A stretch of DNA of 20,179 bases, from positions 1 through 20,179 of the IMG/VR virus record IMGVR_UViG_3300037587_000160, one strand, 5' to 3'. Numbering within the stretch: the stretch's first letter is position 1; the number at the start of each line of letters is the position of its first letter. A model generated the notes under the pieces. The model had not been told where the DNA came from. It searched no databases and saw only the letters and a program-made list of their open reading frames with translations. This stretch comes from a virus. Made by a program: the position numbers and the translations under genes. Positions 4,276 to 12,768 of this stretch are shown here, piece after piece.

Positions 4276-5547
4276 ATGGCACTAGTAACGGCAAATCAAT
4301 TTCAATTAGTACCTGAGTTATCACGCTTAGGCAGTGGATTCCAGCAAGGGCAGCAAATACGTGCAGGACTCGACGCGCGACAACTTGCGCAACAGCAAGC
4401 CCAGCAAACAGCACAGTCTAAGCAATTCGCTGGGCAGGCGCTAACAGGTGATAAGGCCGCTTTAGGCGGTCTCGCGGGAGTCGACACTCAGAAAGCAATA
4501 CAAATCCAATCGTTTCTAGCTAACCAATCTGAAGCCGATCGCGCCGAAGGCTTACGCGAGAATGAAGTTTTAACCCGTTCAGCACTTAGCGCTTTGTCTA
4601 TTGAAGACCCAACTCAGCGACGATCATTTGTAACCGCAGAGCGCGAGAAATTCGCAGCGGCAGGTCGAGACACGGCGAACATTGATCGCGCTTTGTCCGG
4701 TGATGATAACGCATTAAATCAAGCGTTAACACTTCAAGCGCAGCAAGGGCAAGCTATTGCAGATTTGGCAGATAGGCAGTTTCCTAAAGCTGCGGTATCG
4801 TCAGAGCAGAGATCATTTGACTCATTGATTGGCAGTATGTCACCTGAAGATCAAGTGAAAGCCCGAAGAATCAAGGCGGGATTAGATCCAAGGGCTGGGT
4901 CATCATCAGCCGAAAGAATCGCACTAAACCAAAAGCTGGCCGATTTGGTTGCGAAAACTCAAAGCAAGATCGCGGGAGCAAAGACCGGAGCATCCGAAGA
5001 GGCAAAGCTCAAACAGCAGCTTAACTTTAAGCCGCAAATAGCCAAAGCCGTAGCCGATGCGAAGTCGGAAGCAGCCGAGCGCAATGAAGTTTTGACAGAC
5101 CTTAGCAGGGCGCAAGCAGCAATGCCTGGGCTACTCAACGCTGTTGAGCAATTAAGAGATCTATCGAAAATGGCGACCAGCACACTCGGCGGTAGAATTT
5201 TTGATACCGCAGTTAAAGAAACGGGCTTTGGGTCAACGAAGGGCGCAACGGCAAAGGCTAAATTTATTGCCATTATTAACAATCAAGTACTACCATTATT
5301 AAAACCTACTTTCGGGGCCGCGTTTACTGTCCAAGAGGGCGAATCGTTAAAAGCAACAATGGGTGATCCAAATGCTAGTCCAGAGGAAAAAATGGCCCAG
5401 TTGGACGCGTTTATAGACCAAAAAATCAGAGACATTGAAACTAAACAACTCCAACTAGGCCAAGGCGAGCCAGATCAAACCGATAATTTATCACAATCAG
5501 AACTTAATGAACTGGCCGCGTTAGAAGCACAGTTTGGGGGTCAATAA
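4276..5547 (+). CDS. Ejection (DNA transfer) protein, P22 gp20 position (423 aa)
   Basis: The gene starts 9 bases after the preceding stop with an AAGGAA ribosome site. The protein is mostly alpha-helical and Gln/Ala-rich at the N-terminus (a helix with LAQQQAQQTAQSKQFAGQAL), with long charged helices through residues about 200-300. The C-terminal third has a recognisable phage phrase, 'NNQVLPLLKPTFGAAFTVQ' followed by EGESLKATMGDPNASPEEK, typical of internal DNA-transfer proteins. P22 gp20 is about 470 residues and takes part in forming the ejection conduit; this protein is somewhat shorter. It overlaps the next start by one base (TAATG), consistent with balanced expression of the three ejection proteins. 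Confidence 0.75.
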   Translation: MALVTANQFQLVPELSRLGSGFQQGQQIRAGLDARQLAQQQAQQTAQSKQFAGQALTGDKAALGGLAGVDTQKAIQIQSFLANQSEADRAEGLRENEVLTRSALSALSIEDPTQRRSFVTAEREKFAAAGRDTANIDRALSGDDNALNQALTLQAQQGQAIADLADRQFPKAAVSSEQRSFDSLIGSMSPEDQVKARRIKAGLDPRAGSSSAERIALNQKLADLVAKTQSKIAGAKTGASEEAKLKQQLNFKPQIAKAVADAKSEAAERNEVLTDLSRAQAAMPGLLNAVEQLRDLSKMATSTLGGRIFDTAVKETGFGSTKGATAKAKFIAIINNQVLPLLKPTFGAAFTVQEGESLKATMGDPNASPEEKMAQLDAFIDQKIRDIETKQLQLGQGEPDQTDNLSQSELNELAALEAQFGGQ

Positions 5548-7475
5548 TGGGCGCTCAAAGAGATCGTTTAAATGAATTAAGAGCAATGCAGCAGCAAGCG
5601 CCGCAACAACCAACTCAACAGCAGCCTACTCAACAAACTCAGCGCCAACGCCTTGAGCAATTAAGAGCGTTAAGCGCTCAACAGCCAGCGGCACCGCAGG
5701 TCGAGCAGCAACTACCTCCACAACAAGTCGACCAACTACCACCGCAAACAGCACAGCAAGAGGCTCAACTGCCGCCGCAGCCAATAGAGCAGCCAATACA
5801 ACCAACAGCGCAGCCGCAAGGTAGAGGCCGATTCATACCAGAACAACAGCAGCCTCAAGCGCTTGAAGTTCAAGCCCAAAGGGTTAGTGACTTGCCCGAG
5901 CTTGGTCAAGGCGGCTTGCTAGCGGGTCAAGATCCATTAACGGGCGCGGCCATTACTCCGGCATTACTTACAGCAACCGACCCGCAAGAGATTGGCCAGA
6001 TATTAACTAGTAACTTCCCTGGTGTAATTGGGATAACCCAAACCAAAGAGGGCGAATTAATAGCAACTAACAATGACACTGGTGTAAGGGTGTCACTTAA
6101 TAAGCCGGGACTGTCTACTATTGATGTACTTCAAGGTTTGGGCGTTGCGGCGGCTTTCACTCCCGCAGGAAGGGTGGCGACAGGCGGCTTGATAGGCGCA
6201 ACAACAGCGGCGGCAGCATCAGGATTAACATCGGCAGCAATAGAAGGTGTTCAAGCTTTATCTGGCGGGGAGTTTGACGCTGAGACAGTTGCTCTAGATG
6301 CTGCGCTAGGTGGCATTGCCAGCGGCGCGGTTAGTACATTTAAAAAGTTCAAAGCGAATCGAGCTGAAAAGGCAGCATTTGAATCTAGATTCCCCAAACA
6401 ACGCAAGAGCTTTGAAAATAGATTCACCACTAGCAAGAAATTCGGCAGGCTATCCAAAGTCGCACAATCACAAGGCTTTGATGCGGATAAACTAAAAGTA
6501 TTTGCCAGCTCGACCCCATTAGAAAAACGCAAAATGTTAGAAATGGTTAAAATTGCAGAAAAGTCACTTGACGATCCAATTTTTGCCGCAGCCAACAGGC
6601 CGACCGACATTGCCGGGGATTCACTCCTTAGAAAGATTAACTTTGTAAAGAAAAATCAATCTGACGCAGGTACACAGCTCGGCAGGGTCGCTAGAGGATT
6701 AAAAGGTAAAGAGGTTGATATTGAAACGCCTGTTAATGATTTCGTTGTGACAGCCGAAGGGATGGGGATAAGATTCGACGAGGACATGATCCCGTCATTT
6801 GAGGGTTCTTTAATTGAAACTGTAGCTCCAGCAAAAAAGATCATAGAAGATATTGCACTGAAGATAAGAAGAAGCCCGACCATGGACGGGCAGCAGGCTC
6901 ACGAATTTAAAAAGTTCATTGACGAGATAGTTACCTTTGGAAAGTCCGAGGGGCTAAAGGGCAGAACCGAGGCTTTAGCCAAGCAATTGAGAGCTGGTGT
7001 TAACGATTCAGTTAGAGACATTAGCCAACCATACAGGGACGCGAATAAGACATTTAGCGATTCAGTAAGTGCGATTGATGATCTACAAAAGTCCGTTGGC
7101 AAAACTGTCGATCTGTCTGGCCGTCACTCGGATAAAGCTGTGGGAACTTCGTTAAGGGGACTGATGAGCAACATCAAATCAAGAGCTAACATGATGACAG
7201 CAATTGAGAATATTGAGTCTGTGGCGAACAAACAAGGCGGTGCTTTTGATGACAACATACTATCTCAATCATTATTTGCAGAGGAATTAGAACGCATATT
7301 TAAACTTGCTCCTAAAACCGGCTTTCAAGGTCAAGTCACCGCGGGACTCGAAGGCAGCGCCAGCATTTCAGCATTAGGCTTGGCAGCAAAAGCCATTAGC
7401 GCTGGAAAAGAAAGAGCTAAAGGCATAGATAAGCCAGGCGCTATAAAAGCAATCAGAAAAATTTTAATAAATTAA
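5547..7475 (+). CDS. Large ejection (DNA transfer) protein, P22 gp16 position (642 aa)
   Basis: The start overlaps the previous stop (TAATG). Residues 1-100 are a Gln/Pro-rich linker with two copies of an RLxxLRAxxxQQ helix (about residues 6-22 and 34-50). Residues about 135-190 contain a conserved-looking domain (TDPQEIGQIL...NFPGVIGITQ...DTGVRVSLNKPGLS) seen in phage internal virion proteins. Residues about 190-260 are long Gly/Ala-rich hydrophobic stretches that could penetrate membranes, and the rest is a charged helical tail. P22 gp16 (about 609 residues) is ejected first and helps DNA cross the membrane. Size, order and composition fit that role. No lytic transglycosylase motif is visible. 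Confidence 0.75.
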   Translation: MGAQRDRLNELRAMQQQAPQQPTQQQPTQQTQRQRLEQLRALSAQQPAAPQVEQQLPPQQVDQLPPQTAQQEAQLPPQPIEQPIQPTAQPQGRGRFIPEQQQPQALEVQAQRVSDLPELGQGGLLAGQDPLTGAAITPALLTATDPQEIGQILTSNFPGVIGITQTKEGELIATNNDTGVRVSLNKPGLSTIDVLQGLGVAAAFTPAGRVATGGLIGATTAAAASGLTSAAIEGVQALSGGEFDAETVALDAALGGIASGAVSTFKKFKANRAEKAAFESRFPKQRKSFENRFTTSKKFGRLSKVAQSQGFDADKLKVFASSTPLEKRKMLEMVKIAEKSLDDPIFAAANRPTDIAGDSLLRKINFVKKNQSDAGTQLGRVARGLKGKEVDIETPVNDFVVTAEGMGIRFDEDMIPSFEGSLIETVAPAKKIIEDIALKIRRSPTMDGQQAHEFKKFIDEIVTFGKSEGLKGRTEALAKQLRAGVNDSVRDISQPYRDANKTFSDSVSAIDDLQKSVGKTVDLSGRHSDKAVGTSLRGLMSNIKSRANMMTAIENIESVANKQGGAFDDNILSQSLFAEELERIFKLAPKTGFQGQVTAGLEGSASISALGLAAKAISAGKERAKGIDKPGAIKAIRKILIN

Positions 7476-9908: not shown

Positions 9909-11711
9909 ATGACAAAAACTCTAAGACGACCAACAACAAGAGACGCGATAGATAACATGAAGTTTACCGTTGCTGTCGCCATTGGCACACTCATGAAGTC
10001 TGACGGATTTGAAGAAATAGGGGATGGCGGAAAAGGAACGTGGGAGCATAAAGGCGTAACAGGCGTGGCGCCTAGTCAAGACCCTGGTCAATTAGCTGAT
10101 GCGCTGTTTAATGATGCGAGCGGTAATCAGTGGGCGCTGGTTCCTGTTGTCGGTACGGTTTCTAGTGAGATTAACATAAAGGCGTTAGGGGCAATAGCGG
10201 ATGATTCAACTGACAACACGCTTACCATACAGGCGGCAATAAACGCGGCAGCTAAAATAGTCGCCAGTATGATTACAAACAAGATTGTTATTGTTGCATC
10301 ATCTGTTTTTATGCCGGCAGGGATTTATAGGCATCAAACATTAAACACGTTTACAGGTGTGAGGATTTTTGGGTCTGGAATTAGTTCAACATTATTGAAA
10401 TTTACAGGCACAACAGGAAATGCGATAAACATAGATAAAGTTTCTACAGAGGAATTATTTGGAGTTCAGTTTGAAAACTTTTCAATGCAAAATATCGCGG
10501 TATCTGGGTCACCACGCGGAATATCAGGCGATGACGGCAACGCATTAGCAATTAGAAAATGTCACATTATTGGCGTTCAAGTTCGTGAATTCGATATTAA
10601 CTTATTCTTAGACAACAGTTTTACATTCTATTTATTTAATAGTCTATTTATGAGCGCAACCACCAATAATGCCGTACTTAAAAACGCAACGGCTGGCGGG
10701 GCTGATTGGTGTCGGTTTGATGTGTCAGGCGATAATAATGTTGTAGTAGATGATGGAAGTGGCGGGTTTGAATCAATCGCTTGCACATTCAGAAAATGCA
10801 CGTTCCAAAGCTCTACCAAATGGGGCCTGCTAGGTATTGACGTTGTGGCAATGCGGGTGCTAGATTGCTTTTTTGAAGCTAACAATCAAGATGCGGCGGC
10901 TGACTTTGGTAGCGTTTTCTTATCAGATGGCGCAAACACCAGAGGAAAACATTACGAGTTTAGAGGTAATTTCTATTCTCCGGGAAGCGGAACGACTGGG
11001 CAGACAGCAATTAAAATAGACAGAGCTGAATACTTAGAAACCAGCGACATGATCCGAGGTTCAGGTATAGCAAACGGATTGGTGCTAGGCAACAACGTCA
11101 CAATGGCAGTAGATAAAAACATCTATAACGGGCAATCATCAGAGGTCACATACGACGAAGCATTTACTAAGTTATTTAGTTTAAATGGCGCTTTAGCTTT
11201 ACCTTCGTTTTTTGGTGAAGGGGTTGATCTTAGTTCATTTTCATCGGGGGACGCTAACTTACTCGCAGGCAGTCAATTTGCTGGCCATGTACTTGTCGGC
11301 GCGTTTGACGGGGCTCCTGGAATACAAGGAGCGGGTACAGGTTCGGGGTTCAAATTAGACCTTAACCCTCATGACGGGTTTGTCCAGTCTGGAGCAACAA
11401 TAAGCCGTCGAACAATTACAACGTCAAATTTCACAGCGACAAAAAAAACGCCTATGTTAATTTCAACTAGGACAACAGGAACTCATGCTTTTGATGTTGC
11501 ATCAGAAGATCCGACGGACGGCGGGGAATACACTTTTTACAAAACAGACGACGGGAGCACTATTAATGTTGTCCCGGACACGGGAGACGCCATAAACGGA
11601 GGTACGGCCGGTGCCATTTTGATTATCAGCGGGGCGGGATCTTCTGGCCATTACAGAGTTGTTGGTGTTGGCTCTACGGATTGGCGCGTTACGTTTGCTG
11701 CTGAGTCATAA
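9909..11711 (+). CDS. Tailspike 2, pectate-lyase-like beta-helix without a virion anchor domain (600 aa)
   Basis: The gene starts 14 bases after spike 1 with an AGGA ribosome site. Residues about 1-90 form a small domain with 'EEIGDGGKGTWEHKG' and 'FNDASGNQWALVP', similar in style to residues 185-245 of spike 1. Residues about 95-160 carry 'IKALGAIADDSTDNTLTIQA' and 'VFMPAGIY', the entry of a pectate-lyase-3-type beta-helix, which continues to about 400. The last ~100 residues form a beta-sandwich with a 'PDTGDAINGG' and 'GSTDWRVTF' ending, typical of fibre C-termini. The anchor domain of spike 1 (the 'SGAKMFFFSTGT' pattern) is absent, so attachment through spike 1 or another adaptor is inferred. 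It is the last plus-strand gene before the convergent operon. Confidence 0.8.
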   Translation: MTKTLRRPTTRDAIDNMKFTVAVAIGTLMKSDGFEEIGDGGKGTWEHKGVTGVAPSQDPGQLADALFNDASGNQWALVPVVGTVSSEINIKALGAIADDSTDNTLTIQAAINAAAKIVASMITNKIVIVASSVFMPAGIYRHQTLNTFTGVRIFGSGISSTLLKFTGTTGNAINIDKVSTEELFGVQFENFSMQNIAVSGSPRGISGDDGNALAIRKCHIIGVQVREFDINLFLDNSFTFYLFNSLFMSATTNNAVLKNATAGGADWCRFDVSGDNNVVVDDGSGGFESIACTFRKCTFQSSTKWGLLGIDVVAMRVLDCFFEANNQDAAADFGSVFLSDGANTRGKHYEFRGNFYSPGSGTTGQTAIKIDRAEYLETSDMIRGSGIANGLVLGNNVTMAVDKNIYNGQSSEVTYDEAFTKLFSLNGALALPSFFGEGVDLSSFSSGDANLLAGSQFAGHVLVGAFDGAPGIQGAGTGSGFKLDLNPHDGFVQSGATISRRTITTSNFTATKKTPMLISTRTTGTHAFDVASEDPTDGGEYTFYKTDDGSTINVVPDTGDAINGGTAGAILIISGAGSSGHYRVVGVGSTDWRVTFAAES

Positions 11712-11720
11712 ACTAAAAAC

Positions 11721-11745
11721 CGCGGGGCTAATCACTAGTCCCGCG
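11721..11745 (-). terminator. Intrinsic terminator of the leftward replication operon
   Basis: The segment forms a 10-bp stem (CGCGGGGCTA with TAGTCCCGCG, one G-U or G-T pair) and a 5-base loop. Read on the minus strand it is followed by GTTTTTAG, a U-rich tail; read on the plus strand it is followed by A-rich sequence. It therefore ends minus-strand transcription just before the convergent tailspike gene. The stop codon of the last tiny minus-strand gene lies inside the stem. Confidence 0.8.
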
Positions 11746-11799
11746 TAAAAACAAAACAACCACCGCGACAAGTGCCAGGTAGCAAATTATTATTGTCAT
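11728..11799 (-). CDS. Tiny single-pass membrane peptide (23 aa), last gene of replication operon
   Basis: The ATG overlaps the stop of the preceding 26-codon gene as ATGA. The peptide reads MTIIICYLALVAVVVLFLRG plus TSD: nearly entirely hydrophobic over residues 2-18, then a positive charge and a short polar end, a classic single transmembrane helix. The stop falls inside the terminator stem. No known family is recognised. The stop/start overlap and hydrophobicity suggest a real gene, but at 23 codons chance cannot be excluded. Short phage membrane peptides can act in lysis timing, superinfection exclusion or envelope modulation; none can be chosen here. Confidence 0.45.
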   Translation of the reverse strand: MTIIICYLALVAVVVLFLRGTSD

Positions 11800-11876
11800 T
11801 TGTCGCACCTACTATACAGCCACCCACAAATCAGAATAAACCCTATAATAAACATTGCACCTTGTAAATTTGGCAT
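11796..11876 (-). CDS. Tiny single-pass membrane peptide (26 aa) coupled to ninG
   Basis: Its ATG overlaps the ninG stop as TAATG, and its own stop overlaps the start of the next tiny gene as ATGA. The sequence is MPNLQGAMFIIGFILICGWL followed by YSRCDK: a hydrophobic segment at residues 7-21 and a basic end, predicting one membrane helix. The two nested start/stop overlaps mean both peptides would be made by re-initiation after ninG. No homologue is recognised. The alternative is that this is non-coding leader to the terminator. Confidence 0.5.
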   Translation of the reverse strand: MPNLQGAMFIIGFILICGWLYSRCDK

Positions 11877-12289
11877 TATATCTCGCCTACTCTTTCGCGA
11901 TGATGTTTAATCAGCTCATTAAAGCCCTTCAGCATTTCGACATATTCAGCTTTGCCAATTTTTTTGAGCTCGCCTTTAGTATCTAGCATGTGCTGAACTT
12001 GCTCCCGACTGTACGTGTCAATCATCCACAACATGTATTGCTGCGCTGCGATGCCGAATTTCATGCCAAAACCGTTGCAGCCCTTACACTGTGGGTGAAC
12101 GTTCTCAACCTCTAATGCCCATCGTGAGCTAGTTCCTTTTGGTATAAAATGCCCACCGTCCATTTCTTTGTAGTGCTGAAATTCTCCACATGATACGCAG
12201 TTACAATAACCGTTTTCATCTGCCGCTGATATTCTTGCTAGCAATTGAATAGCTAGTAAGCATTTAGATCTTGGTGTTGCTTTTGCCAT
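11876..12289 (-). CDS. ninG: NinG family recombination protein
   Basis: The 137-residue protein shows the NinG (lambda Rap-like) zinc/HNH-type pattern: 'CNCVSCGEFQHYKEMDGGHF' at about residues 28-47, then 'NVHPQCKGCN' at about 63-72. The paired Cys-x2-Cys elements and the GGHF motif are the family hallmarks; the lambda homologue is a structure-specific nuclease that favours branched intermediates during Red recombination. AAGGAA lies just upstream of the ATG. The length is shorter than lambda NinG (about 204 residues), with a helical C-terminal half (REQVQHML...KAEYVEMLKGFNELIKHH). It lies at the end of the replication operon, as nin genes do in lambda and P22. Its stop overlaps the next tiny gene. 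Confidence 0.88.
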   Translation of the reverse strand: MAKATPRSKCLLAIQLLARISAADENGYCNCVSCGEFQHYKEMDGGHFIPKGTSSRWALEVENVHPQCKGCNGFGMKFGIAAQQYMLWMIDTYSREQVQHMLDTKGELKKIGKAEYVEMLKGFNELIKHHRERVGEI

Positions 12290-12298
12290 AATAATTCC

Positions 12299-12736
12299 TT
12301 AAAAAAAGTTATAAAGCTTGTCGATTGTTGTTTGGTCTGCATCCTTAAATACATGACTGATCGCCGCATTAATTAAGGCGCTGTATAGTTTCTCAAATTC
12401 ATCTTGAGACATTTTACCATAGCTAATTGATTTGGCTTCAACTCTAACTCTGCCGTCGATGCCTGAGTATGAATCATAGAACCCAGCGAGCACAGTTAGG
12501 TGATCCCGAAAAACTTCTGATTGCTTTTGCTCACATTGAAACTCGTTGTCGCCTTTCCAGAATTCAAAGCAAAAATTAAAAAACGCGAACACCTTCCGAT
12601 GAAACGCGGCATTCCTAGTTAGCTTAATTTCAACTTCGTACATTTCACCGGTTTTAAATCTAACCAGCTTTTCAGCTTCAAGGTCAGAGGCGGGAACCAT
12701 AACCCCGCCTGGTTGTTTGATAAAATTAACCTTCAT
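12299..12736 (-). CDS. DUF1367 family protein
   Basis: The start is placed at the ATG at 12736, giving MKVNFIKQPGGVMVPASDLE, because that is where the family pattern (a lysine/isoleucine strand, then 'PGGVLVPAS') begins; the frame extends six codons upstream to a GTG. Further family-like features are 'YEVEIKLTRNAAFHRKVFAF', 'FNFCFEFW' and a helical C-terminus. DUF1367 proteins are found beside nin genes in lambdoid phages and have no known function. A GAGG lies about 12 bases before the ATG, a long spacing. The gene precedes ninG by nine bases, so both are probably translated from the same message. Confidence 0.75.
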   Translation of the reverse strand: MKVNFIKQPGGVMVPASDLEAEKLVRFKTGEMYEVEIKLTRNAAFHRKVFAFFNFCFEFWKGDNEFQCEQKQSEVFRDHLTVLAGFYDSYSGIDGRVRVEAKSISYGKMSQDEFEKLYSALINAAISHVFKDADQTTIDKLYNFF

Positions 12737-12768
12737 GATATCATCAAGCCTCACTTGTTAGTTCTCTT

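Follow-up and report, generated by a model that had tools for sequence, protein, structure and literature searches.

Does the end of a phage early operon, where overlapping frames of 26 and 23 codons are wedged between ninG and a terminator, encode a pair of cooperating membrane peptides, a single tiny gene, or no gene at all? The window analysed here is a viral record of 20,179 bases from a podovirus-like phage. Its plus strand up to position 11711 holds the late genes, one of which matches the P22 gp7 ejection protein below threshold, and its minus strand holds the early operon, which encodes an O-like/DnaD-like replication protein, a DnaB helicase, NinB and NinG. A search for relatives of a 168-aa protein from the replication region found none.

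The two frames behind ninG

The ninB gene (Orf recombination mediator) occupies 12299..12754 of the minus strand (phrog_319, E=2e-47), and is followed at 11876..12289 on the same strand by a short form of ninG, a member of the NinG/Rap junction-specific endonuclease family (Pfam NinG PF05766, E=4e-9; phrog_171). The ninG product scores 36.9 bits against a curated cut-off of 25.4, which places it within PF05766. In phage lambda, ninB and ninG lie in a delayed-early operon of interlinked genes (Kroger and Hobom, as relayed in PMC10695390); the lambda nin region is nonessential for plaque formation, and the genes downstream of ninG there are ninH, ninI and Q (PMC10695390). The window resembles lambda in carrying ninB and ninG in an early operon with chained genes. 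What comes after ninG is different: in the window it is two tiny membrane frames and then a terminator, with convergent tail genes on its far side.

The first of these frames, p1 (11796..11876, minus strand; 26 codons, MPNLQGAMFIIGFILICGWLYSRCDK), starts within the end of ninG (..GAGATATAATGCC..), where the TAA of ninG and the ATG of p1 share one base in a TAATG overlap. The second, p2 (11728..11799, minus strand; 23 codons, MTIIICYLALVAVVVLFLRGTSD), overlaps the end of p1 (..GACAAATGACA..) through ATGA. The terminator of the early operon is an intrinsic stem, CGCGGGaCTA/TAGcCCCGCG, followed by GTTTTTAG (11721..11745, minus strand; -14.1 kcal/mol), and it faces a convergent gene, probably that of the tail spike. 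In this stem (CGCGGGaCTAgtgatTAGcCCCGCG, 11745-11721), the 3′ arm opens with the p2 stop codon, TAG at 11730-11728. The chaining of both frames to ninG, and the placement of the second stop inside the terminator stem, are thus as the original prediction had described them.

Both frames are predicted to encode a single membrane helix, again in line with that prediction. For p1, the maximum mean Kyte-Doolittle hydropathy over 17 residues (KD17) is 2.09, against 1.59 and 0.15 in the two alternative sense frames of that stretch; for p2 it is 3.08, against 1.02 and 0.19. The hydrophobicity is specific to the named frames. Re-initiation from the overlaps would be possible, but each frame is also preceded by a modest Shine-Dalgarno match of its own. 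Family searches gave neither peptide a significant match. At the RNA level the region has no Rfam family match and does not fold better than shuffled versions of itself (z -0.56), and the idea that it is an RNA element was rejected on these two grounds.

Composition and the likelihood of chance

The original prediction held that two successive overlapping frames, each giving a clean membrane helix, would be unlikely by chance. The likelihood was estimated from simulated sequences with an ATG start behind a gene under three composition models (local, whole minus strand and early operon). A tiny helix frame arose in 9.4%, 1.6% and 0.4% of cases, respectively; for a coupled chain of two helices the figures were 0.09%, 0.005% and 0 of 60,000. 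Under local composition, a stricter cut-off lowered the coupled chain to 0.01%. The chain in the window is the sole two-helix case among 819 ends of long frames in the window and related loci. On this strand thymine makes up 36-38% of the region, compared with 24% of the early operon, and this local T-richness by itself raises the rate of helix frames and accounts for part of the effect. Since the chain was also chosen from many candidates, the surprise is only moderate, unusual as the chain is.

These figures bear directly on a reading in which neither frame is functional, the T-rich spacer reading as helices by virtue of its composition and any translation amounting to run-on through the overlaps. 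Thymine-rich non-genic DNA widely yields helix-coding frames (Vakirlis et al., PMC7005711), and in these loci helix-helix pairs, if loosely defined, turn up at a rate of roughly one for every 16 kb of strand. Like the de novo peptides of that study, p1 and p2 are short helix-coding frames in a T-rich stretch with few relatives or none; unlike those peptides, which come from yeast intergenic DNA, p1 has a relative, and in that relative it is preceded by a strong Shine-Dalgarno sequence. The spacer reading also gains from the state of the frames in other phages, p1 being broken in its sole relative and p2 being unique. Set against it are the rarity of the coupled chain even at local composition, the frame specificity of the hydrophobicity, and the retention in that relative of the p1 block with edges that match the frame. 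On balance we consider a spacer without genes somewhat unlikely.

Relatives of p1 and p2 and the variable slot

Relatives were sought by several routes. Among 63 IMG/VR loci with a relative of the short NinG, 62 were readable (L044 ends before the end of ninG), and none of these 62 contains the pair or either frame singly. Relatives of NinG were also sought in bacterial genomes, and none was confirmed. With ninB as the marker for the closest relatives, three phages were located (L065, L066 and L067) whose NinB is 94-98% identical at the protein level. Degenerate patterns for both halves of p1 matched L066 only among IMG/VR viral contigs, and one such pattern had no match in genomes. A p2 pattern identified no relative in 2.9 million IMG/VR viral contigs, nor was one found in phage records; three matches to the pattern were rejected as chance, the frames being full of stops. 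The long NinG of L066 led to 80 loci, among which p1 occurs in L066 itself and p2 in none.

The slot between ninG and the terminator varies among these close relatives. It holds a 67-aa soluble frame in L065, p1 alone in L066 and, behind the ninG of L067, an unrelated 41-aa membrane peptide with its own Shine-Dalgarno sequence.

A second variable position lies directly upstream. Comparison of the window (12299-12289) with L065, L066 and L067 shows different genes behind a nearly identical ninB in the four phages: a short NinG, one of two sorts of long NinG, or a set of small proteins together with a 146-aa protein, which looks RuvC-like by eye and has no Pfam match. The site behind ninB is an exchange hot spot for junction nucleases. 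In L066 the early operon also encodes, adjoining ninB, a 312-aa protein (4995-5930) whose alpha/beta-hydrolase match is weak and falls short of the curated cut-off.

In L066, p1 is found behind a different, non-orthologous ninG allele of the long form (Pfam NinG, E=3e-47), again through a TAATG overlap. The shared sequence is a block of 69 bp (11812..11880, minus strand) that covers most of the p1 frame at 90% identity between unrelated flanks; the ninB genes of the two phages are 88% identical in DNA. Ahead of the p1 start in L066 lies a Shine-Dalgarno sequence that is nearly perfect (TAAGGGGGT, -12.3 kcal/mol). Between the two copies there are eight changes over codons 1-22, four of them in codons 6-22, where three are silent and one is a replacement. 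Such a 3:1 bias would arise about 3% of the time by our own arithmetic if changes fell randomly on sites, for a codon range that was chosen post hoc. The match of the block edges to the frame, the Shine-Dalgarno sequence in L066 and the mostly silent changes in codons 6-22 suggest that p1 is a gene that stayed together as one piece when the gene next to it was replaced, although the block could have been kept for a non-coding reason.

The L066 copy is nevertheless not intact. Its codon 5 is a stop (TAA), its codon 8 is ATA in place of ATG, with loss of the internal Met8, and the p1 frame ends at a stop that itself falls inside another hairpin (TAGCCCC/GGGGCTTA); p2 is absent. No intact second copy of p1 under purifying selection was found, the sole relative being the one with the nonsense codon, which represents either the recent loss of a dispensable gene or an assembly error.

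Possible roles at the end of the early operon

The original prediction took the arrangement to suggest that p1 and p2 form a device of two membrane peptides, with re-initiation setting their expression; in the form considered here, re-initiation at the overlaps would fix the ratio of the two. Both peptides are hydrophobic and their frames overlap, and overlapping bacterial genes are generally coupled in translation and their products are often partners (PMC6728339, PMC10666635). With a stop in p1 and no p2 in L066, however, a two-peptide device is unsupported and the pair is probably not a conserved one; no relative of p2 was found in the collections searched, and a tandem pair with synonymous changes, expected in related phages if the pair were a unit, was absent from the 62 short-NinG loci and from L066. 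The original prediction had also named a stop in either frame of a relative as evidence against it, and one such stop was found, that at codon 5 of L066. We regard the two-peptide device as quite unlikely. Very unlikely, in our estimate, is an elaboration in which both frames are translated by successive re-initiation and act jointly in the host membrane, with the ribosome on p2 controlling read-through of the terminator.

The reading that we favour, at a probability of roughly 55%, is that p1 is a real but dispensable tiny inner-membrane gene in a variable slot, and that p2 is an orphan and not an obligate partner. The p1 product would be a tiny single-pass peptide of the inner membrane, encoded where the early operon ends, between a junction-nuclease gene and the terminator at its 3′ limit. 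It would be made early in infection by ribosomes finishing ninG, and may have an accessory role in modulating the host membrane or one of its proteins. The second frame, known from one sequence, may not be a gene; at most it would be a young one, added in this lineage in the space that p1 leaves before the terminator. That p1 and p2 are translated, are inserted into the membrane and have any effect on the host is what we infer.

Two more specialised functions deserve consideration beside a dispensable accessory gene. In size and in their near-pure hydrophobic helix, the peptides are reminiscent of type I toxins such as IbsC (19 aa) and ShoB (26 aa), which consist of a single hydrophobic helix (PMC8309996). 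Either p2, whose size fits, or p1 might accordingly be a toxin-like peptide that depolarises the membrane, possibly kept in check by a plus-strand antisense RNA; a promoter-like match (9/12) lies on that strand at 11765-11793. The region contains seven promoter-like matches against 2.7 expected from shuffles, a modest excess, and no plus-strand terminator is paired with this one. Unlike IbsC and ShoB, p1 and p2 have no antisense antitoxin that we could find and no conserved regulation, and they are stacked behind ninG in a polycistronic arrangement; the lack of conservation and of an Rfam match likewise speaks against a toxin, a role that we consider quite unlikely.

A lysis function, as a minimal holin or spanin, is the other such proposal and seems highly improbable. 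Small membrane peptides would suit it, and p1 has a sub-threshold Pfam match to the T7 outer spanin (E 0.25), but the frames lie at the end of the early operon and not among the late genes. In lambda, the lysis genes come after Q. The L066 phage carries a Phage_lysozyme gene (E=2e-15) elsewhere, on its late-gene strand beside unclassified hydrophobic frames, which makes a lysis role unlikely. The known holins are far longer than p1, which has no clear lipobox.

Tiny membrane frames behind genes are ordinary in these phages. They directly follow genes in one of 15 NinG clusters and in 23 of 649 other gene clusters, so they are not tied to NinG in particular, and a NinG-specific association was rejected. 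The early operon of the window itself contains a 40-aa single-helix membrane frame (MKIFKRIHRLQTPIWLESICFAIIFCCIIGSLLITSGVLS; 18359-18237, minus strand) that is joined to both neighbours by ATGA. The L065 contig (L159) has this frame at 98% identity, with seven of the eight base changes silent and the ATGA junction to the next gene retained; a family search gave no match. Judged from this pattern of substitution, it is a well-supported candidate for a tiny membrane gene under clear coding constraint, and a clearer case than p1 or p2. Upstream of ninG on the same strand, loci L014-L031 carry a family of membrane peptides of 37-40 aa (MDILLGIAWLILIG...) with 12 distinct alleles, a pN/pS of 0.58 that implies mild constraint only, and no significant family match.

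The window frame at 18359-18237 and the frames of L014-L031 and L067 are like p1 and p2 in being short, tightly packed and without a family, with a single helix each; they differ in being longer and unrelated in sequence. The frames of 18359-18237 and L014-L031 are intact in relatives, whereas the sole relative of p1 has a broken copy and no relative of p2 was found. In another phage group (L085-L098 and relatives), a 31-aa frame (MTTENYYQIGWAALLAIGYVLDWFETRGGKW) overlaps the ninG stop through ATGA; these frames are borderline to moderately hydrophobic (KD 0.9-1.6), have a pN/pS of 0.53 and are unrelated to p1 and p2.

With regard to p1, there is thus some evidence that it is a gene, and it is probably a tiny membrane gene of the ordinary kind. 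The lesson of the locus is that a conservation test should precede the assignment of function to paired short frames. Both sides of the matter are visible here: p1 recurs in a second phage behind a start signal of its own, and in that phage it is already broken. Annotation readily overlooks membrane peptides this small, and the ends of phage operons seem to be slots for their gain and loss.
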